Positions 1 through 64,000 of a stretch of 64,000 nt of DNA are shown piece by piece (position 1 is the first letter of the stretch; each line of letters begins with the position of its first letter). A model generated the notes under the pieces. The model had not been told where the DNA came from. It saw only the letters and a program-made list of their open reading frames with translations, and did no database searches. The position numbers and the translations under genes are program-made. Where the stretch lies: the NCBI GenBank assembly GCA_963969365.1, contig OZ017750.1:1364001-1428000 (forward strand). The letters run 5' to 3'. The stretch is from Asterochloris sp. CNOR1 (Eukaryota; Chlorophyta; Trebouxiophyceae; Trebouxiales; Trebouxiaceae).

Positions 1-3000
1 CAGCAATGCGCTGCAGGAGTGGTACTCGAGCTAGCAGCTAGCCTGCTGCCACTCCTGCCGGCAGCATGAGCACACTGCCAGACAACCAGCTGGAGGTCTT
101 CTGAGCTCACCTGGTCTACTCCATGATGGTCAAGCGCTTCAGGCTCAGCTCCCAGGGCATGCCCACACAGCTATCAGAGGCTGCCTCTACACCAGTCACA
201 AGGTGACCTACCTGGTTCCAAAAATGACTGGTCAGGCACTTCAGGCTGAGCTGGAAGGACATGTGCAGCTAGGGAGCTCTCAGCCCAGGCACCACCCCAC
301 ATACTGAGGCAGCTTACCTGTGTCCACCCCACATCGGTAAGGCGCTTCAGGCTCAACTCCAGGGGCTTATCCACATCAGTGCCGCCAGTGAAGCCGCCAC
401 TCAGGAAGTCCAGCAGCTGACGTATGCCCTTCGCAGTTGTATCGAGCTCCAGCTCCATGACCTGACCTGGACCGCTGCAAAGGCACACACATGAGGGCCA
501 CTTGGGTGCTGCAGCATGTGGCGGGCTGGCTCATGGCTGGGGGTTTGGTCAAGCTCAAGCTCCATGACCCTAACCCTGCGGCTGCAGAGACACCAGACAG
601 GCACGCTACCAGCGTGCTTGATGCCAAAGGGCATGCCAAGCCAGCACGCCTACACTTCATCACCAGACACCGCCCGCTGCACAGGGACACGCGCACATGG
701 CTGCTGAAGCCTGTGCTGCAGTGCGGGCAGGCCTTTGGGGCTGGCATTCAGCCGCAGCTCCATCACCTGACCTTCATCACACATGAAAGCTGTCCCCAGC
801 CTTGCTGCTGCGGCCCTGCTTGGCACGCCAGGCCGGGGCAGCTGCTCAGGTAGCTCACCACTTGCCACTGCTACGCAGTCCAGCCTGATCTGCATGACTG
901 GCACTAGCACAATCCCACCAACTGAGGGCGCAGGTGCACCTGAAGGCATAGAGGTAGCACTGCCGCTCCTGCCTGTGGGCCCCTCGCATGCACTCCAGCG
1001 CGACCGCCTTGGCCACAGTCTCACGAGCACCAGCCATGGACCCTGCACAGCGCAAGGAGCTGCTCAAGACATCGCACCAAGTGGCAGAGCCGCATGCAGA
1101 GCTTCCCTGGCGCACAGTGGGGAAGGTGGGCTGCCAGGACACTGGCTAGCCAGCACATGCCACCACAGTCATGGTGGCATATGACGTGAGGCACTCAAGC
1201 TCGGCCCCGATGTCAGGGGTCCCCAGCTGCATGTCAGCTGCATGAGATGCCCTGCACCAGATCAGCACAAAGGAGCAGAGACGAGCCCTGCCAGGCCTGT
1301 GAATCTAACCCAGCATAGTGGCAGGCAGTCCATGTGCAGCAAGACAAGCCAGCACATCAGTTGCATGGTTCCGGTGCTCGGCGCACCTGAGGTGTCCAGG
1401 CAGCAGATGATGGGCCCCATCTCTGCAGCTGGCCGGATCTCCATCCTGGCAGTCACCCGAGTGGGCTCCCCCTGCAACCACCCTGCACAAGCCCAGAACA
1501 GGAGTCTCATCAAGCCTGCGTGTCGCAAGCAACATCCCTGATGGGTGCTCTTTGGCATAAAAGTCAATAGGTGCAGGCAAGACCTGCCATATTCAGCAGG
1601 GGGGTATGGTCTCTGAGCGGCATACATGCAGCGGTGGCAGCCCGTGGAGGGCTCTCATCCAGGCAGGTAGCCTGCTGCTGAGCGAGACAGCAAACAGCTG
1701 CTGACCCGGGAAGCGGCTCTCAAGGTGCCCGCCTGTGCCCCCACCTGTGCGCTCATAGCTCATGAGATTGCGCTCCACGCGGCGGACCATGTGGAGCAGG
1801 CGCGCAGCCCGGGAGCCCTCAGGACTTTGGCCACTGCGCCCACTCTGGTCCTGGAAAGTGAGGGGAGTTGGGTTCATGCCTGTCATCACTTCTGCATGGC
1901 TGCACCAGCCACACTGGGTATGACGCCCACAATTCATTTCTGACACATCAGTGGAGCAATGACTGGGCGTTGGTCCTCCTCGCTAACACCAGCATACACT
2001 GTGTGGTTTTCCTTGTGAGACTGCAGTCACTGCAGACTCCATTCTCTGGCGCGTCTGTGGGCCAAGACCTCACCTGAGGCACCTCCCCTGCCAGCTCCCG
2101 GAGGCGGGCTGCATGCAGCGCTCCCCGCCGTGTCTTGGGCCACCCTGCGGCCATCAGGTGTGCCTCAAAGGGCAGCATGCGAGACAGGTCCCCCGAGCGG
2201 GCAATGCCTCGTGTCTCCTCAGGTTGCAGCGGGGACCGAATGAGGCCTGGAGGGCGCCCAGCCTTCCGCACCTGCAGACAACAGGCTGTGGCGGCTGGGG
2301 CAGCAGCGCACCGTCTGAGCTCAATGGGGCGGGTCTTCGTAGAGAGCTTTGCTGATCTCTGCAGGCAGCTGCAGGCAGAGGGTACTGGCGGCGTGAGCAG
2401 CAGCCATGTCTTGCCAGGCCCTGGAAGCGGGCGTTGCTCATCAAGTGCCACAACCCACAGGCAAGAGACACTGGCAGCATGATCAGCAGTCCTGGTTTGC
2501 CATCCCTGACAGCTGCTGCCACGCCAGTCACAGGAGGCTGCAACTATGCCATATGCAGCCAAGCACACTGATGAGGACCCAGACCTGCTGCCTTCCCAGC
2601 ATGGCATCCACAAATGACCAGTCTCACCTCCTCGGGAGCCCTTCTGAGGGGTCCCACTCCCCCCGCCCGCCCCAGTTGGCGCACCAGCTCCCTCAGCTCA
2701 GGCAGGTCCTCCAGTTTCTTGCGCAGGGACTCCACCTCGGCCCACCCTGTGCTCTGCCAGACCGACAGGGAGCTGTCAAAGCCCTCAGGACCGTCCATAA
2801 GCCCTGCAGGGAACCAAGGTTGCCGGTCCAACTTGTCAGCCCTGGTCTTGACAGGCAGCGTGCAGGCGCATGCTCTTGATGACATTGACACTGGCCAAGC
2901 GCAAAGCTTGCCGTGCCAGATAATTGGCAAATGCCATTGGGGTAGAACGTGTGCCTACTTACGGCCCAAGACGATCGCAAGTGCAGCACTGGCAGGGAGC

Positions 3001-6270: not shown

Positions 6271-6563
6271 GCCGGTGTGTGTTGGACCCTGAGCTGATTT
6301 TTATCTAGCCGAGCTTTGACCGACGTGCCCTAAATCTGAAAACGCCCTAGGTGCATGAGTTGCCAGACTGGGATTGGAGTGCAGTCAAGAAGCTTCATTC
6401 TGCACATCAGGCAGCAGTTTTGACGATTGCGCGTACAGCACTTAAGCTGACATAAACAGTGCTTTGCGCCCCCTACGAAGCTTGAAGGGCTTTACATAGA
6501 TTATACAGCAGCAGGACAGATGGCCCTTTTGACAATGTAGTCCCCTCCCCCCAAACGCAAAGT
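6271..6563. promoter_or_regulatory. Divergent intergenic region between VWA and FUSC genes
   Basis: About 290 bp separate two divergent start codons. The stretch is less GC-rich than the genes and must hold both 5' UTRs and core promoters. I recognise no specific motif in it. Confidence 0.4.
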
Positions 6564-12500: not shown

Positions 12501-15500
12501 CTCGCAAGAAACCTGGATCCAGCAGTGGTGAGTCCACTGGTTTCCTGGCACTTGTGTCTCTGCTCTTGGCCCTCTTCTCGTCACAGGAGCTTGCTTGCCT
12601 ATGCTGCAAAGCTAAGAGTGTGCTGCTGCGCGATGTAGGAGGCCACTTTGTAAGCATCAGCTCGCGCACACAAGACAGATTGAGCTCACATACCTGCCTG
12701 CTGCACCACAATGAGACGTGCAGCAAATTGACTTGTGTCCCGTCTGCAGATCTCACAATCACAGTGGCTGTTGTCTTTGTGGAGAAGGTGAGTGTAGGCC
12801 GAGTCAAACTGCAAAATGTAGCTTAAACTGCCTGCACTGCAATCCGTCCTGCTTCCTGCAGTTTGAGGCCACCATAGCCAAGGGGATCTTCAGGATATGT
12901 GGAGCAGTCATTGGTGGCACGCTGGGTGACACAGCCTGCCTGGCATGGCCTATGCGCATTCCCACACAGCACTCCTGACGTATCCTTCCAGCAGGCCAAG
13001 TCACATCCTCCTCTTGTTTGCCAGTCTTGCTCTGAGTTGAAATGGCCGTCAGCGTCCTGACCCCTCACGTGCATGTGTCTGGTCTGCAGGCTACTTGGTC
13101 ATGCTTGATTACAATATGGCCACCAACCCCTATGGTCTCATGGCCATCATTGTGGTCTATGTCATCATTTTCAGCTTTATGGCCTCCAGCTTCGTACAGC
13201 TCAAATATGCAGCCTTCTTGCTCATCGTGAGTGCTGCCCGTCAGTCATGGTGTTGTCTTGTGGATTGGCATGGCTGTCTGCAGGCAGCACCCAGATGCCA
13301 TGCTTCAGGGATGCTGCCGGGTAGTAAGGGGCAGTGCAGTCAGCAATAGTGTTGGGTGCAGCAGGCACACTGGGGGGGATGTATGTGCAGCAGCGTTGCT
13401 GTTGGAAGGCTGACCAAGGCACCTGCTGCAGATTTCCTTTGATGCCACTGTGCTCTGCCAGTATACCGGCACGAAACCTGGCGCCGCCCTTTACTACGCG
13501 AGCAGGGTGGTGGACTACACTGTTGGTGTGGTGGTAGTGGTCATTTTTGAGGCCATTCTGCCCTGGTGAGCCTCGGCAAGAACTCTGCCCTGTGGCTCCC
13601 TGCATGGCCAAGCTGCAAGGGTCTTCATGTGGCCTGCCAACCTTTGCACAGGGGGTGGCACACCTGTAGTTGACCATGGCTGCAGGCTGTACAGCATGCC
13701 GTGGGGCTGCTGCTTGCTTGCTGCATGTGTGCACTGCAAGAATGCAAGGTGCAGGGCCTAGGTGTGGCCTGTCTGCCCTGCCAGATGTGGCTGGCGTGGC
13801 AGGCTTGCAGGTCCCAAGGTGCTGCGCCTGTGGAGGGTCTGCCACCACGCTGCTGTGCGTCTACAGCAGCTGCAGGTGGTCAGGCCTGCAGCATTGTTTG
13901 GGGCTGCACCAGGCCTGCTGGACCTGACAGATGTGGCATTTCTCGCTGGCTTGCAAGACTTCAGCAGCGCTGCAGCTCTGAGGGAACCTGCATTGTGCCA
14001 ACAGCGCCCGCAGAAGGGCTGATGCGCAGCAGTGCTGAGGCCTGCATCACGCTCGCTGGCCGTGGGTGGGTGTGGCATGTGTGGCTGGCCTGCAGGTCCA
14101 TCCAGGGTGCAGCTCTGTGGAGCCTTGCAGCAGTGGCTGCTGTAACATGGCAGCACGCAAGCAGGGTCTGGATGTGGTTTTGGCAGCCCTGGCAAGTGTG
14201 GCTGGCCTGCAGGTCCACCAACACTGCAGCTCTGGAGGGCATGGCACAGGTGGCCAGGAGCGCTGCACAACTGCTGGACCAGTACTACCATGTCTTCTAC
14301 GAAGAGCTGGAGCTGGCAGGTCAGCTGTGCTCCTGTTCAGCATGCCAGCTGGCCTTCTCTCTCAGGACGCCCTAACCCTTGCGACCTGGCACACGCCGCT
14401 GGCAGGGCAGCAGACCATCTGGACCATCCCTTGCTCTCCTGATTTCCCTCTATGCTGCAAAAAAAGGCAGCATCTGGCACAGACACTCAAAAGCATGCAG
14501 TTCCTGCAGTGCCGCTGCTGCTCCGCAGCCTGTCAGGTCTAGCCTTTGGCAGTTGTCCTCCCTGGCCAGCAGTGCATCTTTGCTGCCTCATTTAGTTCCC
14601 AGGCCTTGCTGTCAGTGGCTGACAAGCAGTCCTGTGACATGCAGTGCCCCATGAGGGGGAGGGCGGGGACTCACAATCTGGCCCAGATCACCAAGAGCTG
14701 CAGAAGGGCGTCCGCGCCATGGGCAAAACCTGGCTGGAGGATCGCATTGCCAAGCCTCTGGGTGAGGCAGGCTGCTGCGCCTCAGGCAGACTGCCCTTCT
14801 GTGACCTGTGCCTCTCTGAATTGCATCTCCCACCTGCTCCAGAAGGCACTGTCCAGATTGCCATGCCGCGCAACAGGAATGGGCTTATGACAGACTCCTG
14901 TTGCAGCCACTTGCATGCCACCACAGTACGTCGGGTTGTCAAACGAGATTATGCACCTCAATCTGCAGACGGCACCGAGTTGGGTCCCTGCTGCGCAAGT
15001 GCAGCACTGGCTGGGGGGGACTCAGTGCTGCATACAAGTGAAGTGCTGCAGCCTGTGGTGAATGCGAAGCCAGCTTGCCTCTCGGCCCCTGCAGCCGGCA
15101 TATACAACCTGCCAGCATCGCTGCTGTGCCCGAACATTGCGCCACCTGATGATGCAGCTGGCGCATAGCCCCCCCTGCCGCGCCGCACACCCCTGCATCT
15201 CAAAGTCAGCTTCCCGCCTGTCCTTGCAGCTTGCATCCAGCTGTACTTGCTGCATGGATGTGTGCCTGGCAATGCTGCTCTCCTCAGCCAGTGTGCCGCC
15301 TCCCCTGCACCTGGCAAGCAGCCCTGCCGGCCATGCAACACACAGCTGCATCTCTTAAAGGACAGTGTCCCACCTTGCCCCGCAGCCGGCATCCAGATGT
15401 CCCTGCTGCGCGAGAGTGTGGCGTGGAAAAGGGGCCCTTGGGCAGTGCCCCCCATCATCGGCAAGGTGTTGGGGCGCCTGCGGGCAGTACTCGACAGCCT

Positions 15501-16823: not shown

Positions 16824-17213
16824 CTGTATGAACCCCTAAATTTGTAGCGCTGTCCTGATGCTTTTGCTGCATCAAGGCTGCTGAGCCATGAAATGACTTC
16901 CCTGTTTTTCTCATTTATGCATGGCCAGCCTGAAGTATCGTTGAAGAAAGTACAACTTTGTTTGAGCAAACATGTCACCTACCGGTGTTCCGGAAGCCAG
17001 ATTGCATGCCACCTGCGACTATGCATTTGACCATGCATGCGCATAGACCATGGATGCTCCGAGCACACCTCTCTCCTTGCCCTCGGAAACACTGCTTTGC
17101 TGGACAGGTGAGTTCCTTTGGGCCAGCATCTGTACCTGATACAGCGCGTTCTGCTGTGTCAAGCCCTCCTGCTGGTGCAGATCTGTGCCTCTGCAGCATA
17201 TGCTCCTGCCAGG
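16824..17213. other. Intergenic region between two co-directional genes
   Basis: About 390 bp hold the 3' UTR of the FUSC gene and the promoter and 5' UTR of the next gene. The stretch near 16890-16970 is AT-richer. No additional gene or clear motif is seen. Confidence 0.4.
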
Positions 17214-19037: not shown

Positions 19038-19086
19038 ACCGATTTGTCCTCATTGTCACTGGCGAGCCATTCCTAAGGAAGGCATC

Positions 19087-22000
19087 TCATGTTGATGCCT
19101 GTTGCTGCTGCTTCTCAGGATAGGCCCATATCAACACAGCGCCTTCGGTGCCCACAGATATGATGGCAGTCTTGTCATGTGTCACAGCCACGCGAGTCAC
19201 GGCGCCGCTGTGTCCCTGGCCAAGCTGCCTGCAGTTACCGTCGTCATAGGACCACACCTGCAGAAGGCAGGCAGCATTGGCTGATACACATGGCTCTCGT
19301 ATCCTATGGCAGCGCCTGGCAGCAGTCCCAATGCGCTGCTCTGCAAGGCAAGCCAGAAGAAATGCGGCAGCAAAGGGGCCAGCACACCTGCCCAGCAGCA
19401 AGCTCAGCATCCTCGAGACATCTTGCTAGGGAGGTCAAAGCAGGACTATGTCAACAGCAGCAACAGCGCCCGCAGCGCATCACCCAGGCAGAAAACACTG
19501 CTGTCATCTGCTAAATAATGAGCAGCTGCAAAGGTGTCTGCCTCAACGTGGCAGCTGCATCCTCACCTTGACACTCTTGTCGTACCCTCCGCTGACAATG
19601 AGCTCCCCATCGTGATCTATGGCCAGCGCGCTGACCTGCTCAGTCTCTGAGCCCTCCAGGATGCGGATGGCCTGACCGTCAAAGGCATCCCAGTATGTGA
19701 TCTTCCTGTCCGTCCCTGCGCACACAGGCTGGCTCAGTCTTTGCAGACACTGTCTACCCATTGGATCTCAGTTGAACTCTGCACCTTTGACAGGGCAAGC
19801 AGCTAGTGCCAGCCTTTGCAGTGGTCAGCAGGCCCTGCCTGAGCGACTTCAATCCTAACAGGCAGCGACAGTGCATGTGTGTGGAGGGAATGGCTTGGCC
19901 TGTGCTCACCGGAGGTCACTATCTGTGAGCCATCGGGGTGGTACACAACTGATTTGAAGAAGGTGTTGGCCAGCAGCGAGCTCCTGCGCTTGAAGCTGCA
20001 CAGATCCCAGATGATGCAGCTGCCGTCGCTGCTGGCGCTGATGCACTCTGTGCTGCTGCCCTCCTTCACATAGATGCTGTTCACAACACCCTTGTGCTCC
20101 TGCATGGAGACGTGGGAGTCAGCCATGGTGCAGGCAGCCCTCAGCATGCAGCAGTGCACTGCCTGGTGTGCAGCCCCCTGCCTGGACTGCTGAGCATCAG
20201 CGGCAGACCCAGAGCACGCATAGGTGCATCACCAAAGGCAAATCAATGCTAAGACATGCCACAAACTCAACGCCTCAACAGGGCCTCATCAACAGGCAGC
20301 CCACATCCCGGCCAGGCTCCACAGCGGCTAGCCTTTACCAGCTCTACCTAGGCAGGCCACTTTCATGCTGCCTCCATCTGGATGACTCCCCCGTGCTGCC
20401 AAACCCTTTGAACCAGTTTCAGGACCCTGCTGGCTTGCAGCAGGGGTGCAAGTGTACTTTGTCATCTCATCTCCAAACCCAAATTCAAGGGTTGTCTGCC
20501 TTGTGCTTTGCACGTGCCTGGCCAGCCAAACGCACGACAAGTTGCTTATGCAAAGTTCCAGGACACTGCTGGCTTGCAGCAGGGCAACCCTTGTACCAAC
20601 AGTCATCAGAATCAGATCAGCACCTCTCATTCGTGCTGGCCAATATCTTAGGGATCTCCATGCTTTTCTCACTCACCCAGCAGTCCCTGCACAGGCTTGG
20701 TGCCTCTGCTGGCTTGCTCTCGGCCTGGCTATACCCAGCCTTCACCGTGTAGAGCCAGCGCAAACACATCTGGCAGGCAGTCTTGCTGCTTCAGCCCTTC
20801 CCCCCCCCACCTTTCACCCCCCATTTTCCGAACACTCCCTCCACAGAGCAAGCGCATGCCTTTGCTGGCTTGTGCGAGCTCCTTCCCAACCTTCACCAAA
20901 ACGCGCCAGCAGCCCACTGTCACGCTGGCCTCCATCTGGCGGCTCTCTTTGCCCCTCAGGCCTCTGCTGGGTACACCAGGGCTGCCACTACCACTTCATT
21001 GAAGCCCAACTCCAGCAATCCCACCTTCATGCTGGCTTCCATCTGGCGGCTCTCCTTGCTGACCCGCCACACACGCACGGCACCCTCCTCTCCGCCAGAG
21101 AGGATACGGGCGCTGTCAGCAGTGCCGGCAATGGCTGTGACAGCACCGTGGTGGGCGTCATGAATCGTGTACAGGAGCTTCCCACTCTGGGGGCCAAACG
21201 CACGGATGCGCCCGTCACTCCACCCGCTCACTATGGTGGTGCCATTCTGCAGGACAGGCACAAGTGTGTTGCCCTGGAGAAGGTTGCAGGAGTGATTGAC
21301 AACCCTGTGAGGCGTGCAGGGAGTGGCCTGCTCATGTGCACAGCGGGTGCCATGGGTGCAGGCAGTCGCTTGTCCATGGGACGGGCCAGGCAGGGCCTGC
21401 TTCTTGAGCATTTTCAGGCCAAAGCGGCTGCTGTGTCAGGGTCGCAGATTGCACCAGCTGGAACTTGCAGGTAGGGGACTATCTCAGCACAAACGGTCAG
21501 GTTCAAAGAGGAGCGAGTAAGCAGGCAGCACCTCCAGGTAGCAGCTGTTGCTAAGCAGCTAGCTGCCTTAGGGCGAGAGGCGGCAGGGGCTGCAAGCCCA
21601 GTTCGTGGCAGGGAGGCCACAGCAGCATGTCACACAGGCAGCATGCACCTCACGGCAGGGCAACTGGCCCAAGTCAGGCATGGCTACTTGCGGGGCATGA
21701 TCTCCACGGGGTGGCAGAGGCATGGCTGTCTGGTGCAGGACTGGGCTGCCACTGACCTGCATGAAGGCCACGCAGGTGCACCCCAAATTGGGCACGCTGA
21801 TGCGCAGCAGCTCCCGCCGGCTGTGCAGGTGCCAGACACGGATCCCCCCGAAGCTGCAGGTTGCAAACACCTCACTGTACTGGTGGGGGAAGGCCAGGTC
21901 GGTGATCTTCTGGCTGTGCGCCGTCTGCAGCAGCTCTGGCCGCAGCTCCTTGCTCTGCACAGCACCCGTGAGCTGTCAGTCTCTAGACAACATTGCTGCG

Positions 22001-25860: not shown

Positions 25861-28800
25861 ATGGGCAACACAGCGTCCACTCAGGATGCAGCCCCTGAAA
25901 CCCCTGGCCTGGTGGGCAAGCTGGGAGCCATCCCCCGTGCAGCTGCCATCACTGAGGGTGGTGGTGGCAAACGCAAGGGGGGTGCCGCTCCTAAGCTTCC
26001 CCCGAACTCTATCAAGTCTCAGGCAGAGGACTGGGCCTACATAGAGGTGGGCTAGAACTGCCACCACCTGCCAGCCACCTGCTGCTGGCACCAGCATGCC
26101 TGCAGCCTGCCACAGGGCTTGTTGTGGGCCTGCACAGGGAGCCTGCTGCACTTTGGAAGACTTGCTGACGCTGAAGCAACCCTGACGGGGCAGCCCCCCA
26201 CAGCACATTGACAGCCCTTCAGTCCAGGAGCGCAAGTCTCAGACCCCTGCTTCATGGACAAGACTGCCTGCCAGCTCCTGCTGCAGCAAGATCTGAGCAA
26301 GCCGCCCTGACACCCTGCTTGCCTGCCTCAGACAATGCCTTGGGATGCCTATCGTCCTGCCCGATCGCTGCTCCTGCACCTGCTGCATCAGTGCCTGCAC
26401 AAGCTCCTGCACCTGCTGCAACAATGCCTCACCAAGGCTCCTGCATCCTGCTGCAGCAATGCCTCAACAAGCTGCTGCTGATGGGGAAGCTAGACGCGGC
26501 GGTGCAGCGCAAGGTCGTGCAGGAGATGTACGAGCGTAAGGTCACTGCCGGGGAGATTCTCATCAAGGAGGGCGACACAGGTGAGCTGGGCGGAGTGTTG
26601 TTTGAGAATCCCCTGGTGGCCCGTCGCTGTCAGTTGGTGAGGGTGGACCCTCTATCATGACCCTCTATGTCACACGGCTGTCAGTTGGCCACTTGTGAGT
26701 GCTCATACCGTCAGCCCTAAATCACCCTTCCCCACCAATGGAGTGTGTGCCTTCACTGCTGCTTGCCAACCATGCTGCTCTAGTTTACACAGGCCAGGTC
26801 TTCAACCGAGGCTGTGTTCCCTGACTGCCAGCATGTCGCTGAGCCACCCCTCTGCCATCTGTTGGCCCAGGCAGCTCCTTGTCTGTGGGGTGCAGGCCGG
26901 GCAGCCCAAGCGCTGTGTCTTGTCAATGCTGCTTGCCTATGTTCCCAGCCCCCAGCTTGCAGCTTTGCAACTCTTCCCACCCTGGGTCTGCAGGCCTGGC
27001 AGCCAGTGAGCTGTATGTGGTGAAGGATGGCGAGTTCGAGGTGCTGGAGCGGCGGCAGGGCGTCAACATGCGGGTGAACATGAAGCACCGAGGGGACACC
27101 TTTGGCGAGATTAGCCTCATGTATAACAGCCCTCGCAGTGCAACAGTGGCGGCCACGCAGGACTCGGTCGTCTGGGTGCTGGAACGCACCATCTTCAGGT
27201 ATGCACTGGTTTGAGTGAGTGGTTTCACTGGATGAAGGGGGTCTGGGTGCTGAAACACACCGTCTCCGTGTGGTGTGCATCTTTGCCTTTGGCCTGAAGG
27301 CTGCATGGCCTTATCTTGGTTGCCCGGCCCGGTCAGACGTGCAGTGGCATGTCGCGCCTTTCGACGCAGTGCAAGGCCACATCAGCTGCAAGTTGACCAG
27401 ATTACGTGAGGTTGTGAAGGCCACCTGTTTCTTGGAACGGTCTGGGGAGCAGATCAGTGCTGAGATGGCAGTGCTCTATCAGCGCTGTAAGCACCCGCAT
27501 CAGACCGCTTGACAGGAGCAGGGGATTTGGCCATGTTGATGCTAAATGTTCATGCCGCTGACAGGATGTGACCCCTGGCATGCGTCCAGCATGCAGTGCA
27601 CCTGAAAACGGTCAGCCAGCCCGTCTGCAGAGCAGCTTGTCTAACATCCTGGGCGTCCAGGCAGCCCACAGCACGCTGGGCTTGCCTGCTGGCAACAATC
27701 TGCACTGTGGCCCTAGGCCCAGGCATGCACCATGTGGACATTGCAGATCAGCTGCCAGCCTGCTTTCTGGTGACTCCAGGGCTGCAGGCCTGTGTGAGGG
27801 AGGTGCATACCTGCATGCCAGCCATCTGCACACCAGCAGTGGACACCGCCCTGCAGGCACTTCATGAGGACGGGGCATGAGGAGGTCGTCTGGCATCTGC
27901 AGTCTGCCCATGCAGGCGCCAATGAGAGGCTGCCCTCCTGTGCTGCAGACATTATGTGAGGGAGGTGCATGAGACGGACGCCAGCCAGGTGGAGCTCTTC
28001 CTGAACAGCGTGCCCATTCTGGCGCCCCTGACACGCGATGAGAAGCTGCTGCTGTTGGATGCGCTGGAGGAGCAGGTCTATGGGCCAGGCGTGCGTGTCA
28101 TCAACCAGGTACGCTGCTGGACTGTGGACCTTGACAGGCCCGCAATGGCACAAGCCATGTTAGGTGGGTGGTCAGGATAATGTCGCCAGCCCTGTCAAAT
28201 GCTGCTTCTGGGGTTGGCCTGTGCGCTGCAGGGATGCCCATCATCAAGCTCATAGGTTGCTTGATGGATATCACTGTGTTAATGGGTACTGGCTGATGGA
28301 GAGGGGAAATTCTAGCACATCTGAGGCGCACTGGCTCTTGAGCTTCCAGCCAACAGCATGGCTGGCCAGACAGTGTGCAGGGGTGGCCCTTGCATGCGCA
28401 GGCAGCACCTGGAAGGGACTGCCACACGCCGCAGACAGGACATGAGCCCACGCTGCTGTGAGCACTTCCGGACGATTGCGATGCATCCAAGCCAGCCTGC
28501 CGCCTGCAGCATTCTGGTCCAGTCCGCAGCAGGCCCCCCAGTCACCAGTCCAGACTGCACAGTCCACCTGCAGCCAGCACAGAAAGGCAGCCCTGACAGC
28601 TGCCGCCATAGCCTGCAGGGCGACCAGGGTGATCTCTTCTACATCATCAAGGAGGGGGAGGCTGTGGTGTACCAGAGCACCCCCCAGGGCACTCGCAAAG
28701 TAAACCACCTGTTCAAGGCAGACTTCTTTGGGGAGCGCGCCCTGCTGGTGGATGAGCCCAGGTCAGGCCAATTGCTGGACAGGTCGTGCTACCAAGTCAC

Positions 28801-31800
28801 CGTGGAAGGCAAGAGGCCAGGCTGCTGCGGCCACCTGGTGCCGGCCACACCAGGATACAACTTGTGATACGTGCTATTACTTCCTGCAGGACCGGCAAAG
28901 ATGCGCTGCAGCAGTCATGTCCTCCATCCACTGCCTGTGACTGTACCTGCAGCAGTGCATGCTCGGCAAGACCAGCCTTGCCCAGGCTGCAAGAACAAGC
29001 AGAGGCAGTGCTCACGCTGCATGGCCACTGCATTGGACCTCGCTTGCTGTGCACAAGGCGTTTGGTGCTATGTGCTGAGTTGTGCAGCATGTGATGCAGC
29101 AAGTGCACAAGAACAGGGCGCAAACTCATCGCCCGCTGTCACTGCAGGGCTGCCAGCGTGGAGGCCATCACCCGCCTGGTGTGCCTGACCCTGAAGCGGG
29201 AGCGGTTTGTGGAGATGCTGGGGCCCCTGGAGCAGCTGATGGCCCGTGAGAAGAGCCCCCAGGCTGTCACGCAGCGCCTGATGAAGCTGCAGACGAAGGG
29301 GACCCCTGCCCACATGCCTGCCGAGGTGGGCAAGCATGGGCGTGCCACCTGGTGCACAAGAATGCACCTGCCGGTGGGCTGCACCGAAACTATTCCGCGC
29401 CATTCAGGGGTCTGCGGCATAACCTGAAGCACGTGGATAAACAATGGTCGAGTGGTATGCACCTCCTGCCCTGCCTGGCGGCTGCACAGGACAGCTTTCC
29501 CTGTGGGACTCTGCCTCATGGTGCCCTGTCTGCTTGCCTGTGGCATGCCCTGTGAGCACATGGTGCAATGTCTTCTGCTTCTACCAGCCAGATCATCGCA
29601 GTAGTTTTACCTCGCCCAGCGCTGCGCCCCTGGCCAAGGAACAGCTGCTTGACTCCCCAAAGCGCTGACTGAGCATGGAGGCCAGGGCGCTCTATGGCAG
29701 CTGTCAGACTCTGCCCCAGCTGTCTTCATGAGCTGTCCAGTCACCACAAGGACTCCTGCAGCAGAGTCATGCTGCCAAGTAAGTTGCAGGTACAGATGAA
29801 GCAGCTCAAGCATAGGCCTAGTGGCATCCAGGCAGCCTTGTACACCTGTCAGCTCGAGCACACGAGCCCTGACATGTTGCCCTGCAGGTGCCACGCAAAC
29901 AGCTCAAGCACAGACGCTCAGCAGTCATCTGCTGCTCCAGGCTCCCTGATCTCAAGGACAAAGCCAAGCGCAGGCACAGGCGCTGTGAGCTGCGTGCAGC
30001 AGAATATTTCGGAGACCAGGGCCCCAGGTTTCAGCAGTCGAGCCAGCCTGGACTGCCCTGCAGGTTCTGGTCAAGTGTGTGGCCGCATCAGCGCGCACAC
30101 CTGAAGGTCCTTCCCATGGCTTCAGCGCGTGAGACATGAGTCTGACCTGACATGGCGTGTGCCCGCACTGCAGGTGCTGATCAAGCGGCGCAAGCGTGGG
30201 CGCACCGGGGTGGAGACCTGGGAGGTCGTTCGAGCACGGGGTCACCTGGACGAGGTGCAGGAGCTCAAAGCCACAGAGCCCACCGTGGGGCCAGACGGGA
30301 AGGCCAGCAAGGAGAGCATGCAGCTGGTGCTGACCGAGGGGGCTGTGCTGGGCGGGGGGGCCTTCAGCAGGGTGTCCATCGTGACAGGTGGGCGGCCACT
30401 GGGTGCCGCAATGCATGGCGCTCATGCACGGGATTGTGCTGTGCAGAATAGAACTGCGACAGGGCTGGGTTCTGCATTGCATGGTGCTCCTGCGTGGGAC
30501 TGTGCTGGCCAGAAGAGTGCTGCGTCCATTGTGACAGGGAGGCAGCGGCTGGCTGCCGCCTTGCAAGGTGCTGCTCAGTATCAAGTCATGCACAGGATTA
30601 AGCTGGGCAGGGTGCAGCTTGTTTGGGGCATGGTGACAGGCGTGGACTTGTTGCTAGAGACAGTCTGTGCGGAGGCCCATCCCAATCAGCCCAAACGCCC
30701 TCTGACAGGTCCATTGCCAGCCTGCAGAGCATAGACGCTGCTGCCCTGCGCTACGCCCCTGTAGTGGAAGGCGTCCACACTCTCTCTCTGGGCTCACCTG
30801 CTCAGCTTCTTTTTCCCAGAGAGGGCGCCTGCAGAGGCGTCAATTGCTGCACCCACGCTCCTGGCTGCCACTGCCAGAAGTCTACGAGCTGGCTTGTAGA
30901 GGAGTTGCCAGGCGTGCACTGCTGAGTCTCGCTTGAGCACATGGGGCTACTCGACCATTGTTGCCTGCCCTCCTGTCTGCAGAGGAGTCCTCCGCACGCA
31001 CCTACGCGCTCAAGCGCATGCGCAAGTCGGCTGTCGTGCAGTGCCCCGAGCACGTCTTCTGCGAACAGGCCATCACACGCAACACAGCGCACCCCTTCTG
31101 CATTCGCCAGTACGCCTCCTTCCAGGTGGGGCACCACCACAAGGTCCCTTTGTGTGCAGGCTCACCCCCCCTTAACCCCCTTGCGGAGACATGATCTCAG
31201 TGATTAGCAAGCTCACATGCTTGCTGTCATGCTGCATGACCGCCGCTCGCCTCAGAGGACAGCTTTGTGCTCGCAGCCTCATGAAGCATGTGTCCTGCAT
31301 GATGCCACATAGCGCGTTTTCATGGGGCAACAACCTTCACTTTCCTACCTGCAGGACAAGTACCACCTCTACTTTCTGTTTGACCTCATGATGGGGGGCG
31401 ACCTGATGGACGTCCTCGTTGCAGAGGCCAAGGTCATCAAGAGGCGCATTGCGCAGGGGGCATGGCGGCGGGCCTGCCTCGCTCCCAAGGTGGGCAGCCG
31501 CTGCGGTCATGCTTTCAGGGTGATTGCACTGTGCAGAATGCATGATGGCAGGCCTGACTCGCGCTTAGGATGAGGAGTGCTGCTATCACGGTTTGAGGGT
31601 GTCGTCTGTGTTGGCAGCCTGCAGTGGGCCTGCCCTTGTGCCCACAGTGGGCCTGAGCGGATCCGTTCTGGGGCATGGGGTTGGCGTAGGGCTGTCTTGC
31701 GCCCAAGGTGGGGTGGGCTTGAGCTGTGTGCTTCAGCAGTGCTACCTGAACATTGCCCTGGCCTTGGAGGCATCCTGCTTCAGGCTGTGGCCCCAGCCTG

Positions 31801-51477: not shown

Positions 51478-54095
51478 TTACAGCTTGCTGAGCTGAATCA
51501 CAAGATCTCTGGTGATGCTTTGAAGGTTGGGAACCCCGGCCAGAACCATTGCAAGCTCTAGCTGCCGTCTGAGCAAAGACAGGACCTTTTCAACACCCGC
51601 TTGGCCTTGCAGGGCCAGGCCCCACATACAAGGGCGGCCCAGCAGCACAGCATCTGCACCCAGAGCCAGAGCCTTCAGCACATCAGTCCCCCACCTGCAC
51701 AGCCAAGACGAGCCACTCAGCTCTGCTGCTTGAGCAAACACGGTCTGTGCTGACCCAAGAGGCAAGGCGTAGCTCAACTACAATGCCTCTGCTGTGCAGA
51801 GCGATGGCAGGCATGCCTCCGCAGAGGTCCTGCCTTCCCAGCCAGGACTGCTCACCGAATGCCACCATCCACCTGGTACAAAGCAAAGCACGTGTCACTT
51901 ATATAGTCGTGGTTGCAATCATTACGTGGTCAGCTTTACATGGTGCAATCAAAGGTAATCTCACCAGCAGCGGCACCTGGTCACCAACAGCCGCTTTCAC
52001 TCTAGGCAGCTGCACCAGCACACGGAGTCAGTGGCTCTCAAAGCTGGCACGCTCCACAACAGGCAATTGGAGCAGCAAAATCTTGGGGGTACACAGCGGG
52101 GTTCACCATGTCAAGTGTTGCAGCGCAGTGGTCTAGCTGGCGGCCACCGTGGTTAGACACCACAATGCCTGCAGCCCCTGCATCAACTGCCAGCCGCGCA
52201 TCCTGAGGGGACATCACGCCCTGCATCACCAGGAGGCGTCGGTCCATTTCTAGCGGACGTTGGGCTTCCCTGCCAGTGCAAAGGAGGCAGCAGCTCCACA
52301 TCAGCGTGATGCTGTCAAGCGCACCTTGACAAAAACAGGCAGACTAGTCACCGTCCTCATCCAACTTAAGAAGTTCCAAGTCAGACTGTCGTCCATGTTG
52401 GCACTGCAGCAATGAGCCAAGCGCTTGCAGCTTATCCTTCTGCAGCCTGTCTGCCAAAAATGTATGTGTCCACCACAGCAGCAGGTGCTCAGGCTTCAGG
52501 TCTGCAGCATGCTGCAGGGCACGGGGCACCCCACGGGGCCAGATTGGCCCCAGCTCAGCCTGCCTCACTTGAAGAGCTGCGCAGGGGCCGAAGCGCTGCT
52601 CCTGTTGTGGTCATGTGTCTGCACAGCCCTGGCAAGTGCCAGGTCTGCCAGATTGCTGTACTCCAGGTCCTCCCTGAGGGATAGTGAACTTCTCTCGTCT
52701 GCCTCGCGGTTGCCAGTTCTTGGAGAGTCTACGGTGACCATGATGGCCCTGTACCCTGCTTTCTCAGCCCCTGCAGGCGTGCCGTCAGCGAGACACTGCT
52801 TCTTTGGCATGGCATGGGCTCTCACTCCGTGCCAGATGCTGCGCTGGGCGTGCTCTATCAGCCCCTGCGGGCGTGCTGGCACCATAAGAGTCTCGCTTTG
52901 GCATGGCAGGGGCTGGCCTGGCACCATGCCAAGCACGGGCTAAGCATGCACAGGTCTTATCTTTGCAGGGCTAACTTTGTATGAGGCTGGCCGTGAACTT
53001 GCGATCCTTTGTCACATACAGCTGGAAGATGAGGCAGGGAGCTGACTGCCCCGCAGCTGCTACGTCCTCCAGGCTGGTGGTTGCCATGGTCGATACAACC
53101 TACACAGGCACACAACAACTACTTTGGGCAGGTGTCCCACGTGAGGACAGGCAGTAGCCTGCATACAGCACAATGTGGGCTAGGGATGCAGCCAAAGTGC
53201 AACAGCTGGTCCACAATAGGGCAACAGTCTCCGAAGCGAGTTGGCTGCAAGATGCTGCTGCACAGACAGCTAATCAGATGGTTGCCATGGTGGAGACGAC
53301 CTGCTTCAATGTTGTCAGGCTGTGAGAGCAGGACAGTTGCGGCAGGCAGCAGACTGCATGCAGCTGTGCCAGCAGCTGCCTGAGTCTGGCTGACCCCAGC
53401 CTGCCAGGCCGTCCCCACTCCGCCTGTGTGCTACACCTGGCCTGGCTTCCCCGACCAGCATCCGACTACAGTGCACAGAGCTCAGCCACACACCATGCAA
53501 GTCTTGGCTGCCGCTGCAGCATGGGCCATTGCCACTTCCCCTTCATGGTGCGCCATGCGCATCTGGCTCATGGGCGCAATGAGCACAGGCATCGCCAGCC
53601 GTTGCCCTGCATGGCAGGTGTGTGCACCTTCCCAATGAACAGTCTGTTCTGGAAAGTGTCCAGCAGCTGCTGGTTTGCTGTTGGCAGCAGGGCCTCACCA
53701 AGCAGATTGAAGCTGAGATTAATCTGGCTGACGTTTATCATGCATCTTGGTATGAGCCTGAAGCACAGGCATGAGCGCTGCTCAAGCTGCAGGTCAGTCA
53801 CAATGGAAGCTGCAAATGGCTACCCACCTCCATTTGTGAAATGCAGCTCTGCAGGCAGCCGCCAGGTGTCAGCACATGTACAACCTGAGCTGCCTCCCCT
53901 GCCGAAGCAGAATTCACCTGTTATCCCTCACGGTTGTCTCTGAATCGGATCCAGATCTGACATAGTGGAAAAACTGCAGCAGCAGAGTAGCCAAGGTGAC
54001 TCAAACACAAACATGCCTGCAGCATGCCAAAGGGCCAGGCACGCACTTACAGGGCCTGGTAAGACTTTTTTGGCAAGGACCTCTACCTCCTGCAT
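51478..54095 (-). CDS. Peroxisomal FMN-dependent L-2-hydroxyacid oxidase (lactate/glycolate oxidase family), PTS1 SKL
   Basis: Exon 1 (54051-54095) encodes [15 protein letters not shown]. Exon 2 (53932-53973) encodes [14 protein letters not shown]. Further exons read [20 protein letters not shown] (about 53690-53750), [20 protein letters not shown] (about 53535-53600), [18 protein letters not shown] with [10 protein letters not shown] (about 52985-53097), [20 protein letters not shown] (about 52700-52765), LPVFVK ending an exon near 52330, [15 protein letters not shown] with [13 protein letters not shown] (active-site His and Arg, about 52130-52215), and finally [20 protein letters not shown] with the end VIQLSKL. 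The alpha-hydroxyacid oxidase fold and catalytic residues are present, and SKL is a strong PTS1. Position 82 (spinach numbering about 78) is Met in IAPMSQM, and the Trp of the usual SSWATSS is Met here. These suggest L-lactate rather than glycolate as main substrate. Several exon borders between 53600 and 53930 are unresolved. Confidence 0.85.
52772..53307 (-). repeat. Decoy acceptors in hydroxyacid oxidase introns
   Basis: The real exon start coding VVSTMAT lies at about 53076-53105. A copy with GTCGTCTCCACCATGGCAAC and a preceding CAG lies upstream in the gene at about 53276-53307 and stops immediately. The acceptor GCCTGCAG with GGGCTGA at about 52772 has a copy (GCCCGCAG with GGGCTGA) at about 52861. 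Confidence 0.7.
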
Positions 54096-58814: not shown

Positions 58815-61800
58815 ATGGCTGCTCAAGAGCTGCTGCAGCAAGCTGAAGCCCAGTGGCGGCAGCTTGTGGAGCCTCATGCAATTCCTGGCATGCTCTCGCC
58901 GCACATTGGCCACCTGGTGGGCGATGCTGAGCTTGCAATCGCATGTGATGTACGCCTGTGTTTTGCAGTCGGCACCAAGGTAGGCGTACTTGTCTCACGT
59001 CCTTGCTGCAGGCTCTACAGAATGCCAGTCGCCAGGCAAAGGCAGCCAATGTTCCCCTTGTGCTGCACAGGCATGTTCTTCCCTGCTCGCCCTCTCGGGC
59101 TGGTCAGGCCTGCGTCAGAGGCATGTTCTGTCCCAGTGATGTCACCCTGCTCTTCAGGCTGCTGCATAGCTTTGAGCCTGTCCTCCAGCTCGCAGCGTCG
59201 GGGCAAAGTGGAGTCCTGGGGATGGACAGCATTGCGCCAGATGCACCAGGCAGCTCTGGGCCTGCCACACCCCCTCAGCATGTGCAGGCAGGAAACTCTG
59301 GTAATGTCATGCCGGACACACAACCCAGGCTCCAGGTGTGCTCGCTGCCCGCCTAGTGCCTGGCTCAAACCTTCCGTGTGGCCTGCGCCAGCCTTCACTG
59401 CCTTGCGCCTGCAGGTGTCCACCATACCCACAGGCCAGCAAGCCTTCTATGAGCCTGCCGGCATGTATCTTCAGAGGCTGCAGTGTGCACAACTGCTGCA
59501 GCCACACAGGGCCCAGCTCCTGCAGGCTGCAGCTCAGAGTCACCAGGGACTGGACCGCAGGTGTGCTCAATGTGACGGCACTGCTGCAATCCCTGAGCTG
59601 GCTCAATCAGTTGCTGACCTGGGCTGTTTGCTGAACCTCAGGCATCAGGAGCTTGCAGCTGAGCGAGGTCTCTGCGCGTCTGCATCCTGTCAACACCAAG
59701 ACGTGAGGGCAGCAGGCATTATGCACCCAGCAGAGAGCCTCAGTGATGGAGTAGAGGGGATCAACTTGAGCCTCCAAGCACCAGCCTTCTGCTTGTGGTG
59801 CGGTGCTTAAGCAACACAAGTGCAGCATGAGCGTAAGCTGGCAACGGCACACTGCTCCAGCCCATGACTGTATGCAAGGTCTGCATGCCGCTGAGTCCAC
59901 TTGACTGTGGGCAATCGTTGCCACTGGCTGCCTGCTCCTTTTCAACTTGGAGCTGACTCTGATGGGTTCACTGACTTCAGGGAGGATGCAGCCCACACTG
60001 ACGACGAGGAGCAATGCCTGCAATGGGATGACAGCTGCATGGCTTCAGCCAGCAGCATGGCACTGACTGACTTAACCCTGCAGAGCCCCAGCAGCACACC
60101 TGCCCCTGCTGGAGAAGCAGCCCTTCATGCGGCTGCAGGCAATGCAGCAGGTCCTGTAGCAGCAGCTTACAGGTTGTCACTAGCAGGGGTCGGTCGCCAG
60201 AGGCCTCAGCAGGCTGAGCGCAGCGCTCGCCCCTCAGCTGGGAAGCTCACAGCCCCAGTGCTGCAGGCGGCTGCACTGTCCGCCCAGGTTCAGTCCTTCC
60301 TTCTGCTGCACAGCGTTGGCCTGGCAGACCTGGGGCATGTCCGTAAGCAGGTGCGCTTTCAGAGTCTCTAGGCTTGCAGGGCAGTTGTGTGACCTCTGGA
60401 AGCTGCTTTGGTGCATTGGTGACTGTTTCACAAGAGAAAACCGCGGCGCCAATGGAGCTGCATGCTTCTGCTTCTGTAGACTCCACAGTGCCAGTGACTG
60501 CTGCAGAAGCTGCTGTACTGTGGCTTGCAGCTCACTTCTCCATGTCAGTGCACTTGGTCGCTGCTCCTCCGCACCTGGAAGTCATCTTGCAGCTGCTGCT
60601 GAAGTGCAGGCCCAGCAGTGCCAGCAGCTGCAGCATGTGGCGCAGCAGCAGAGGCTGTTGGGCATGCGGGAGTGGCACAGGAATGCAGAAGAGGCAGCCA
60701 GGCATGCAAGGTGCTGCGCTGCCAAGATGAACACAAGCTGCAAACTGCACCATACCCGAAGGCACTTGTGCACTTGGCTTGGTGCTGTTGCTGTGCCTGC
60801 CTGCCTGCACTCGCTGATGACTTTGGCAGATGTGAGTGCGTGATCCTCTCTGCACAGGGAGGAGGCTGCCACAGAACGTTCGGAGGTGCTGCAGGCCAGC
60901 GGCTTGAATGCCTGCCTCAGTCCACTGCTGGTGCTCAGCTACACTGGCGATGTTGCCCATCTGGACTTGCGGCGCTTTGATTCACATTACTTCTTCTGTG
61001 GTTGGCAGGGAGGAGACTGCTCAGCCGTTCATGCCACATGGTAGCCGTTCAATCAGGCGCAGGACCTCTGCGGCTGCAGGGAAGAGGCTGACAGGCAGCG
61101 CCTGAAGGCGCTGAAGGCCAACGACTTCAACTTCTACCTGAGCCTGGTACGCCCAGCTGACAACAGCAGGATCAACAAGCTGCTACAGCAGACAGATGCC
61201 TGCCTGAAGCAGCTGACAGCTCGCCTGAGGCTCAACTGCAATGTGCTGAAGGCAGCGGTGCAGCAGGACAGTGCTTCTGGTGAGGTGGGCGTTGATTGCG
61301 GGCTGGAGGGAGTCTGGCTCTGGCCATCTTGTAAATACCTGCAGCTTGAATGGGGTCCCTTCTAGACAGCCGTGGACCCTTTCAGAGATGTTAGCATTGG
61401 GAGCCTTGTCTGCCAGGCATGTGAATGCCTGTGACTCATGAGCACCAGTGTCAGCATGACTTGACGCAACCTGTGCAGAGTACAGTACTCAGTCCTGCTT
61501 AGGAAGAGCAGCTGCAATCACCCCTAACACCATTCTCTCTGCTTTGCAGGAGCCACACTTGATCAGGCCGCCTTCCAGGAGAGCAGCTCCCAGTGGAACA
61601 GTTTCGCCAAGATGCTGGAGGCTGATGTGCAATCCCAGCCTTACCTTGTGCAGGGCAAGCTGCACCCATACCAGATGCAGGTGAGCCTGGTCAATTAACC
61701 CCCGCTTGGTGCAATGGAGGCGCATGTCCTGGCTCATCCTCAGCTTCTGTAGGGCAAGCTGCACCCATACCAGATACAGGTAAGCCTGGTGACCCAGCAC

Positions 61801-64000
61801 ACCCTAGGTTGGAGGCAGATAGTGGTCTCAGCCTCCTTATGTTAGGCAGTCCAGGCTCATATCAGATGCAGGCAGGGAAGCTGATAAGGTGGCACCCCTT
61901 GATACCTTGCAGGTGGTGGAGGGCAGGAAGGTTGAGCCTGTGCTGTGTCTGCCATGTCTCTTGAGCACATATGGTGCCCAGTACTGCAAGCTTTGCTCAG
62001 CTGAGTCCTGAAACGCCATGATTCACGTGCAGGGCTTACGATGGCTTCTTGGCCTGTATGACAACAATCTCAATGGCATCCTGGCAGATGAAATGGTAGG
62101 CACTGGTGTTCTGACTGCTTCGCTTATCACGCTTCACTCAGGACTTTGCTGACATGGTATGCTGGATGTACAGGGGTTGGGCAAAACAGTGCAGGTGTGG
62201 CACTTGCTCCCAGCCTGTCCACTCTGGCCTTGGCACATCTGCACGCGAGGTGCCTACCTGTGTGCAGATCCCCAGCCTGTGTGCGGATCCCTACCTTGGT
62301 GCTTGTCACCATGCAGAACCCCAGCGCTTGTGAAGCACCTGCCTGGGTGCCTCCTGGCTGCTTGCTTGCGGGCATGCTGCTTGCCTGAAGGCAGGCTTTC
62401 CGCCAAATCAGAGCTGCTGCCATGTGTGACTAGGTCTGCCACAGGTTATTGCCCTTCTGGCCTACCTGGTGGGAGAGCGCTGCGTTTGCACCCCCAGCCT
62501 GGTCGTGGTGCCAGCCTCTGTCAGTGCCAACTGGGCCATCGAATTCAGGCAATGGGCCCCCAAGCTGAAGGTTATTGAATACTTTGGACCAAAGGATGAG
62601 CGTGATGCAATTTTCAGAAAGCAGGTGGGCAGGAACTTCTCTCAGAACATTGGCTTGATGGGCAGCACTCTGGCCACATGCAGTGAGGAACACCCTCCTC
62701 AGGCGCATGCAGAATGAGTTCTGCACAAGCCAATTGCCAGCCAATTGCCAAGAATTGGGCTGCAGTAGCATTGGAGCGCAAACCATGCTGCCTGGAAGTC
62801 TGTCCTTCAGCTTCCAAAGCGCGGCTTGCGGTCAGTGGCTGGCCTGCAGGGTCCGCAACTGTCTTGCATGTCAAGTCTGTGGGCAACCAGCGCATGATGT
62901 CCTGCAATCTGCAGTCCCATCAGCACCGAGCAGGAGCTGTGCAATGGCTGTGGTCCTGTGCAGGTGACTGGACGTACAGGCAGCTTTCATGTGCTGCTGA
63001 CGACCTTTGAGCTGCTCATGGGCAGGCACGACAGGCCTCAGCTGAGCCAAGTCGGCTGGAATCTGATTGTGGTAGATGAGGCCCACAGGATGAAGAATGC
63101 ACAGTCCAAGCTAAATCGCGAGATGACACTATACAGCACAAAGCACAGGCTACTGCTCACAGGCATGGCCCCGCGTGATGGGCCTTTAGCTGCTGGTCAT
63201 GTTGCACCTGCATCCTAGGCGGCTCCACAGCTCGCTTCTGCACTTCTGGCGAGCCTATGCTGAGCAGGCTGCTGAGTGATCGCCTGTGGACATCCTTTGA
63301 GCAGGTCGTCACGGCACACCCGCCTTTCATGCAGCTGCAATGCTGCCTCTGAGGGCCTAAGGGTGAATGCAGCCTCTTGACCGCGTGCGATGTGGCACAT
63401 GCAGGCACCCCGCTGCAGAACAGGATGGCTGAGCTGTGGGCTCTGCTCAATTTTCTGGCCCCAGCCCTGTTCAGCTCCTCTGAGGAATTTGAGACCTGGT
63501 GAGCTGCACCCTGGACCATGATTGCATGGTCAGCCCGTTGACATTAGAGTTTGCGCAAAGGAGACCTGGTCCACAGCGCAAGCGTTGAAGCGATTTGCTG
63601 CCAGCGCAAATCACATATATCACAATACATATCTGGCCACACAGTCCACCAGGGTGTCTGAAGAGGGCGGAGATGCGTCCACCTTATGCAGTATTTCCTG
63701 CATTTGCATGGCAGGTTCAGCAGTGGCTTGTCAGAGGAGGGCAATAGGGCAGAGGCGGATGCTGCAGAGGCTGCGCTGCTCACTGATGAGGAGACCCTCT
63801 TGGTCACAAACAGGCTGCACCAGGTGCTGAGGCTCTTCATGCTGCGGAGGCTGAAGAGCACTGTAGCGCAAGACCTCCCCAACAAGGTATGCCACTGAGC
63901 TTTTATGTCTGCTGGTCTGAAGAGCTGCCAAGCACGTATATGAACTGTGTCTGGGCCTAAGCCCAGATGTGTGTTTTATTTCCCTGATCCTTCCCGCCAC
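58815..64000 (+). CDS. SNF2-family (Brahma-like) chromatin-remodelling ATPase (partial, C-terminus off window)
   Basis: The likely start is [20 protein letters not shown]. The N-terminal exons to about 60350 are low-complexity (an acidic [20 protein letters not shown] near 59960). A helical HSA-like part follows ([20 protein letters not shown]). The exon from about 61078 encodes [18 protein letters not shown], then [16 protein letters not shown], a Brahma-type linker. The helicase core begins GKLHPYQMQ (about 61655), then [27 protein letters not shown] (62174-62194), [12 protein letters not shown] (62445-62624), [30 protein letters not shown] (62964-63162), [17 protein letters not shown] (63405-63498) and [20 protein letters not shown] (63715-63886). 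The second RecA lobe and anything after (for example a bromodomain) lie right of the window. It should remodel nucleosomes with ATP in the nucleus. The linker and core sequence favour the BRM/SWI2 class over ISWI or CHD. The first exons are the weakest part of the model. Confidence 0.85.
60856..61100 (+). repeat. Three copies of an acceptor and exon start before the SNF2 linker exon
   Basis: CAG followed by GGAGGAGGCTG (about 60856), GGAGGAGACTG (about 61007) and GGAAGAGGCTG (about 61075). Only the third opens the exon that codes [16 protein letters not shown]. The first two run into unrelated or stop-containing sequence. Confidence 0.65.
61652..61790 (+). repeat. Near-identical duplicate of an SNF2 exon end and its donor
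   Basis: The exon end and donor at 61652-61691 (AGGGCAAGCTGCACCC, then CAGATGCAG and GTGAGCCTGGT) recur at 61751-61790 with two differences over 40 bases. The copy has CAG-GTAAGC, a stronger-looking donor than the original CAG-GTGAGC. Splicing from it would add 99 bases that contain an in-frame TAA. A third fragment lies at about 61860-61880. Confidence 0.92.
62174..62194 (+). other. 21-nt microexon encoding the Walker A motif
   Basis: Between acceptor TACAG and donor GTGTGG, the 21 bases encode GLGKTVQ. They join in phase 0 to ADEM (ending 62095, donor GTAGGC) and VIALLAYL (starting 62445 after CACAG). Without it the protein would lose its ATP-binding lysine while staying in frame. Confidence 0.85.

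Follow-up and report, generated by a model that had tools for sequence, protein, structure and literature searches.

Decayed tandem duplications of about 100 bp as a footprint of stepwise intron lengthening in the green alga Asterochloris sp. CNOR1

Background

Why do introns of the green alga Asterochloris sp. CNOR1 carry worn copies of the exon ends that lie beside them? The question was raised by a stretch of 64,000 nucleotides (GenBank assembly GCA_963969365.1, contig OZ017750.1, positions 1,364,001 to 1,428,000), hereafter the window, in whose numbering all coordinates are given unless another locus is named. A first-pass annotation of the window, made from its letters alone, had listed twelve pairs of exon edges and intronic copies and read them as duplications across splice junctions that are still lengthening introns and leave a large reservoir of decoy splice sites. 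Our analysis finds a real footprint of intron lengthening, in steps of about 100 bp, across the sampled contigs. The annotation was right on the phenomenon and over-read three of its aspects, namely junctions as the target, activity as ongoing and decoys as a reservoir. Quite probably, many small tandem duplications, most commonly of about 90 to 120 bp, have been fixed, lengthening introns step by step, and have then decayed.

The introns of core Reinhardtinia are described as conspicuously long and as lacking the usual peak at 60 to 110 bp, with a driver of length that is likely ancient and, for Chlamydomonas and its relatives, is left open (PMC8226300). A footprint of stepwise growth that can be counted, and that is visible in a single genome without an outgroup, makes the question of intron length testable, and duplicated splice sites offer natural replicates for the strength of selection against decoys. 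If duplication of this kind were the main engine of intron length in other chlorophytes too, it would help to explain long introns that lack the 60-110 bp peak of other compact genomes. Comparable cases have been described in potato, Drosophila and Daphnia; what appears to be new here is how widespread the duplications are in an alga, together with their mode near 100 bp. No report of tandem duplications of about 100 bp pervading the introns of an alga was found in the open-licence literature, as judged from search listings.

Methods

The genome comprises 56.38 Mb in 21 contigs, and the window lies on the contig designated C5. The sample totalled 334.3 kb (0.6% of the genome) and consisted of the window and forty further pieces (L003-L042), of which twenty were 10 kb long and came from 16 contigs, while the other twenty were kinase-bearing and measured 2.5 to 5 kb. 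Genes were modelled with our own gene finder, which was iterated from seeds comprising kinase exons and window reading frames; the minimum intron was set at 55 nt, and shorter introns are invisible to it. Its models are predictions without RNA evidence and comprise 709 predicted exons with a median intron of 274.5 nt over the sample. The predicted donor consensus is approximately CAG/GTGAG (the slash marks the junction). The predicted acceptor, CTGCAG/G, has an unusually strong consensus over the whole sample, with T at 0.90, G at 0.96 and C at 0.97 in the positions preceding AG.

The gene finder assigned only 9% of bases to intergenic DNA, compared with about 26% published for the 56-Mb genome of Asterochloris glomerata, which has 9 introns per gene (PMC6652019), and for this reason some intergenic DNA has probably been counted as intron in our analysis. 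Although only 1 of 94 arrays fell in predicted intergenic DNA, where random placement expects 10.0, we do not claim a shortage, as the label is under-called by the gene finder.

Tandem arrays were identified by ungapped self-matching. Low-complexity matches were removed (3 of 82 in one scan, with the same filter in the array scans), and overlapping arrays were merged to the best match, which reduced 117 matches to 85 arrays at lags of 15 to 1000. Markov controls preserved local composition. The exon-edge test used the 505 introns that were flanked on each side by a predicted exon of 20 nt or more; introns with a shorter flanking exon and introns cut by a locus end were dropped. In the neutral simulation, duplications were placed uniformly and decayed neutrally, with the real exon either constrained or not, and indel rates were assumed.

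Results and discussion

Decayed tandem copies are far more abundant in this genome than chance allows. At lags of 50 to 160 and a score of at least 16, the sample held 94 decayed tandem arrays, distributed across the sampled contigs beyond the window as well as within it, and the Markov controls held 0 and 0; at a score of at least 15 the counts were 107 versus 1 and 1. Introns also matched their own exons more often than unrelated ones: at a score of at least 14, 52 of 1,010 intron sides matched the adjoining exon, against 2 of 3,030 comparisons with exons of other loci and 2 of 1,010 with the reverse complement of the own exon. Self-matches at this score were present in 96 of the 505 introns when taken with 60-nt exon flanks, versus 2 in an unrelated-intron control and 4 in a Markov control. 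Introns that hold copies have a median length of 417.5 nt and the others one of 262 nt; long introns offer more room for matches, yet among introns of at least 350 nt self-matches occurred in 65 of 185 and in the unrelated-intron control of the same length in 0 of 185. In Daphnia (PMC4202315), significant internal direct repeats were reported in 100 of 617 established and 55 of 90 new introns, and were read as the result of staggered double-strand break repair that passively lengthens introns. Direct repeats inside introns are thus common to both organisms, although the Daphnia report focuses on new introns and on exon-end repeats of 4 to 12 bp, whereas the alga has units of about 100 bp in ordinary introns.

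The excess does not depend on the gene models. Of 44 exon pieces defined by Pfam kinase matches (six of them spanning stops), 14 have a copy within 350 bp on either side, compared with 1 of 220 when other kinase exons were used and 1 of 44 in reverse complement. The remaining 96 of the 140 kinase matches were not used; four of these lie inside sampled loci and each span stops, and the rest lie outside the sampled DNA. Chance or low-complexity matching in a genome rich in CTG and CAG was nevertheless considered, as words such as CTGCTG are common by eye and one of the listed pairs, 15087 against 15386, is itself at chance level: its best alignment has 16 matches, one gap and a score of 13, a value that 7 of 505 pairs of unrelated introns attain even ungapped. 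The other 11 of the 12 pairs hold on re-alignment. Given the lack of any Markov array at score 16, the matching of fewer than 1% of unrelated exons and introns at score 14 and the rarity of reverse-complement matches, chance is refuted for the bulk of the arrays, and its probability as a general explanation is negligible.

The duplication itself is plain at the DNA level, where copies are adjacent, in the same orientation and spaced by about the length of the unit, as had been proposed. Among 55 arrays (lag 50 to 160, score 20), gapped alignment covers a median of 0.77 of the unit and approximately 1.0 in the clearest cases. Best-match lags have a median of 107, and 27 of the 85 merged arrays lie at 90 to 119. 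Autocorrelation within introns reaches 2.3 to 4.0 times baseline at lags of 64 to 150 and falls to approximately 1 near 300. The lower edge of the distribution is soft, since scan power drops below about 50 bp, while longer spacings would be detectable if common.

The copies are private to their loci. This is what separates them from introners, dispersed intron-making elements that likewise affect introns widely and have been reported mainly from fast-evolving lineages, green algae among them (PMC9860276), which makes them, or another repeat family, a natural candidate. Introners share sequence across many genes. By contrast, each of three units searched genome-wide matched only its tandem neighbour, 91 of 94 units had no match elsewhere in the 334-kb sample (two of the three others lie about 1.1 kb apart in L018), and the near absence of matches to exons of other loci points the same way. 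On these matches the introner explanation is refuted for the units tested and seems exceedingly unlikely for the remainder.

A third possibility is RNA-mediated copying, in which pieces of spliced mRNA are written back beside the gene. Similarity does often stop near the junction, with 43% of match ends lying within 6 bp of it compared with 17% at random. However, 21 of 52 copies extend for at least 15 bases into their own intron, against 6 for a random intron and 4 under a spliced model in which the next exon follows; for at least 8 bases the figures are 26 of 52 for the own intron and 11 of 52 for the next exon, the latter no better than its control (12 of 52). Because the copies extend into their own intron and not into the next exon, their source is genomic, unspliced DNA. 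Duplications that lie wholly within introns, moreover, are almost as frequent and show comparable spacing. RNA copying, which we regard as highly implausible overall, could survive only for the minority of copies that stop at the junction.

The lags of the purely exonic arrays, at all lags, are 387, 27, 120 and 111, all four divisible by 3, and at a lower threshold this holds for 5 of the 7 arrays whose two copies both include exon. These small numbers suggest that coding duplications survive mainly in frame.

Junction-spanning duplication had been presented as a mode of its own. Of the 94 arrays, 48 have one exonic copy and 38 are wholly intronic, and the median lags of the two classes are similar (98.5 and 92); the excess of one-exonic arrays is modest, as detailed below. 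We therefore read the junction copies as the more visible half of a single process. The rule that acceptor-side copies lie 5' and donor-side copies 3' of the real site follows from searching inside the intron and adds no finding.

The accepted mechanism of intron gain by tandem duplication (PMC3443670) offers a further explanation, in which duplication of an exonic segment containing AGGT creates an intron that begins at the GT of the first copy and ends at the AG of the second. The type of mutation and the splice-site logic are the same as here (PMC3443670; for Drosophila, PMC2891723). Such an origin makes new introns and predicts a donor copy and an acceptor copy at a lag equal to the intron length, whereas exon plus intron in both copies was found in only 2 of 55 arrays at lags of 50 to 160 (L014 at 5597 and the window at 61616). 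The 417.5-nt median of copy-bearing introns also contrasts with lags of about 100, and 38 of the 94 arrays touch no predicted exon. Classical gain is accordingly an improbable account of the set as a whole. A potato RdRp gene (PMC4974935) resembles the alga in having a tandem duplication of genomic DNA that crosses an intron-exon boundary and turns formerly exonic sequence intronic. The potato case is a single recent one that created a new intron, whereas the cases in the alga are numerous and decayed, and most of them sit within longer introns that already existed.

Nor do the copies form the large decoy reservoir that had been envisaged. The mapped GT is kept in 10 of 26 and the mapped AG in 8 of 26 exon-edge copies, so that the claim that copies include the splice site stands for 18 of 52 and falls for the rest, and only 3 of the 52 score as high as the real site. 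Of the 21 matches that, within 220 nt, run up to the edge of the exon, 10 keep the dinucleotide, where 0.72 is expected (p = 0.015) and the exon bases beside it match at 0.85; the dinucleotide is apparently lost faster than under neutral decay. The same figures bear on the idea that selection maintains the intronic copies as real exons, used alternatively or in a mutually exclusive manner. Exon parts of the copies are indeed more alike than the flanking intron parts (0.85 versus 0.47), and one copy, at 61753-61779, was called by the gene finder as an in-frame mini-exon. The scarcity of retained splice dinucleotides speaks against such exons, as does the lack of any preference for multiples of 3 among one-exonic lags (11 of 42; 17 of 48 at a lower threshold), and we consider them a very improbable explanation.

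The age distribution shows few young copies. By Jukes-Cantor divergence, 1 of the 55 arrays lies below 0.05, 3 lie at 0.05-0.10, the next three bins of 0.05 hold 7, 8 and 6, and 11 lie at 0.25-0.30, 14 at 0.30-0.35 and 5 above, the old bins being inflated because only the best-kept parts align. The one dated array below 5% is a 68-bp tandem repeat with more than two copies that are 99% identical (L018:545-701). With 4 of 55 arrays less than 10% diverged, the claim of ongoing activity finds little backing. Within the detection limit, the 86 arrays that are intronic or have one exonic copy account for about 8.4 kb, or 3.9% of the predicted intron sequence.

Taken in sequence, the process that we propose would run as follows. 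Duplications within introns and across junctions would be tolerated, because the outer splice site remains usable and the spliceosome would keep using it, whereas exonic duplications would persist mainly when the reading frame is kept. After fixation, substitutions and indels would wear down the intronic copy while selection maintains the real exon copy, and duplicated splice sites appear to be lost faster than the remainder of the copy. The result would be intron growth in increments of about 100 bp, approximately half of the visible increments taking in part of the adjoining exon.

As to origin, the duplications may stem from the repair, through fill-in synthesis and end joining, of breaks produced by two opposite-strand nicks some 100 bp from each other. 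Small tandem duplications are reported to result when breaks bearing complementary 3' overhangs are filled in and their ends are then joined (PMC8355091). The products of that Pol alpha-primase pathway are likewise short and head-to-tail; they concern induced breaks in human and mouse cells and insertions of less than 100 bp, and no such work on this alga was found in the open-licence literature searched. The pathway is marked by dependence on CST, Shieldin and Ku and by joins with little or no microhomology. Ku-like matches in the genome comprise one strong and one weak, and matches to family-A DNA polymerase lie on two contigs. The repair pathway is something that we infer.

Replication slippage or unequal crossing-over, in place of break repair, could also have produced the duplications. 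Some arrays, such as 442-688 in the window and, on gapped coverage, L028 2418-2764 and L039 89-380, have about three copies, as unequal exchange would give. When the joins of five hand-picked units were inspected, the match extended beyond the lag by 2, 0 and 1 bp in three, a thin set that would fit break repair better than either process, and by 17 bp in one, the array at 40350-40556, which would favour them; the fifth was too decayed. A spacing of about 100 bp is long for replication slippage. We rate this source as unlikely, though by no means remote.

Several observations weigh against stepwise lengthening by fixed duplications of this size. At lags of 16 to 63, too, the autocorrelation within introns is elevated, 2.1 to 2.4 times, and the 100-bp mode rests on this broader short-range excess. 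That sequence was inserted at all we infer from the repeats alone, and the 17-bp join just described fits break repair poorly. A steady process should give equal numbers of young and middle-aged copies, and there are too few young copies for a constant rate; either the rate has fallen, or young copies are hidden by fixation or by the assembly. The remaining misfits are with the simulation. One-exonic arrays make up 48 of 86 (0.56), versus 0.41 under random placement and 0.34-0.39 in the neutral simulation. Match ends lie within 6 bp of the junction in 11-19% of simulated cases, far below the 43% found. The simulation expects the dinucleotide to be kept in 0.80-0.87, versus the 10 of 21 noted above, and an extension of at least 15 bases into the intron in 0.63-0.74, versus 21 of 52 (18 of 37 at lags up to 160; p = 0.05 against the lower simulation figure and 0.0009 against the upper).

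The misfits in junction ends, dinucleotides and intron extension would be explained by selection against decoys, and these small numbers suggest that duplications carrying a working decoy are selected against or quickly lose it. The exonic excess may come partly from intergenic DNA mislabelled as intron and otherwise stays unexplained. Exon constraint alone, which would have to double the visibility of exonic copies to yield 0.56, was considered and dropped, as the simulation with its 0.34-0.39 did not produce it.

On the present sequence evidence, tandem duplication as the dominant mode of intron growth is plausible. The stronger proposal, that the 100-bp process is the main engine of intron length, having added about 4% in the detectable age range while selection erased duplicated splice sites, is possible and is offered tentatively, as we find it somewhat doubtful.

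Individual arrays in the window

The listed pairs occupy 7 gene models, or 8 if a probable fusion is split, and not the nine or more genes of the first-pass annotation. A Pfam scan of six window proteins found recognisable domains in five (PKG kinase plus cyclic-nucleotide, RF-1, FMN_dh, SNF2 and proteasomal AAA) and none in one.

A nearly complete 99-bp tandem duplication lies on the plus strand at 61616-61714/61715-61809, in an SNF2-family gene (SNF2-rel_dom, Pfam), and comprises the exon end PYQ(M/I)Q with its donor. CAG/GTRAGC is kept in both copies, these two are its only genome-wide matches, and the listed pair 61652-61691/61751-61790 (38 of 40 identical) falls within the unit. The mini-exon of 27 nt called at 61753-61779 is the duplicated exon end, an example of annotation being misled by copies. 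Among the best-preserved arrays is also one absent from the earlier list, a 95-bp minus-strand duplication (40358-40452/40453-40547) across the acceptor of predicted exon 39401-40410 in a coiled-coil-like gene, with CTGCAG/G kept in the copy.

On the minus strand, the CFAP52 gene carries two junction arrays, both at lag 107. The start of exon 21757-21954 is copied into the upstream intron (21893-21957/22000-22064, 86%); this unit has two genome-wide matches only, and the exon joint agrees with the JGI Asterochloris model P0001. The end of exon 21025-21246 is copied into the next intron (20913..21059). A 31-bp match of 94% at lag 139 (20415..20584) lies wholly within a predicted intron of the same gene.

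Four plus-strand arrays belong to the predicted PKG gene. A 33-bp tandem array of 3.2 copies (26370..26478) runs to the acceptor of predicted exon 26457-26580, and its two upstream copies have CAT and CAA, as read by eye, versus CAG at the real site. The end of exon 26994-27198 is copied into the next intron at lag 71 (27170-27194/27241-27265), where the decoy donor keeps its GT and is weak (score -0.4 versus 5.8). The start of kinase exon 32533-32784, which is backed by a Pkinase match, is duplicated at lag 116 (32413-32460/32529-32576), with the decoy GGCAG/ATCC kept. A 66-bp tandem duplication (30399..30524) lies wholly within a predicted intron.

Two further arrays on the plus strand span predicted acceptors. 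One, at 14073..14254, crosses that of predicted exon 14213-14319 at lag 117 and keeps the decoy CTGCAG/GTCC; the listed pair re-aligns here as 14073-14117/14190-14234 with 87% identity. The other, at the acceptor of predicted exon 17890-18016 (17792-17815/17873-17896, lag 81), scores only 14.

The remaining arrays are on the minus strand. Part of exon 48263-48435 of a 26S proteasome ATPase gene (AAA and proteasomal ATPase domains) is copied into the next intron at lag 99 (48190-48213/48289-48312); the decoy donor is lost, and the pair sits just below the single positions first listed for it. The start of predicted exon 318-474 (442-486) is copied to 549-593 at lag 107 within an array at 442..773, with a further copy at lag 305 (450-468/755-773, 18 of 19 matches) and a fainter copy (62%) at 644-688. 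Between exons 1-10 and 318-474, the predicted intron holds a decayed duplication at 127..263 with lag 102, and a related copy near 322-375 extends into the exon. The start of FMN-dehydrogenase exon 52569-52770 (FMN_dh domain) is duplicated at lag 94 (52757..52914). The outer edge of predicted exon 52976-53087 is copied at lag 201 (53078-53101/53279-53302), at a predicted gene start where the junction is putative.

Gene models and minor observations

The CFAP52 protein of the window matches P0001 with 99% identity over 73% of the query. P0001 runs past exon 21025-21246 into the intron (20956-21024 of the window), and this model is probably truncated. Predicted gene 6699-19037 is probably a fusion of a membrane-protein-like and a quinone-oxidoreductase-like gene, names given by eye to unscanned proteins. 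A perfect 11-bp tandem repeat of 3.1 copies lies at 15718-15751. Among the 140 listed kinase matches, only one, near a contig end (G000:C19:10167-10916), has a near-whole domain (3-263 of 263) in a single open frame.

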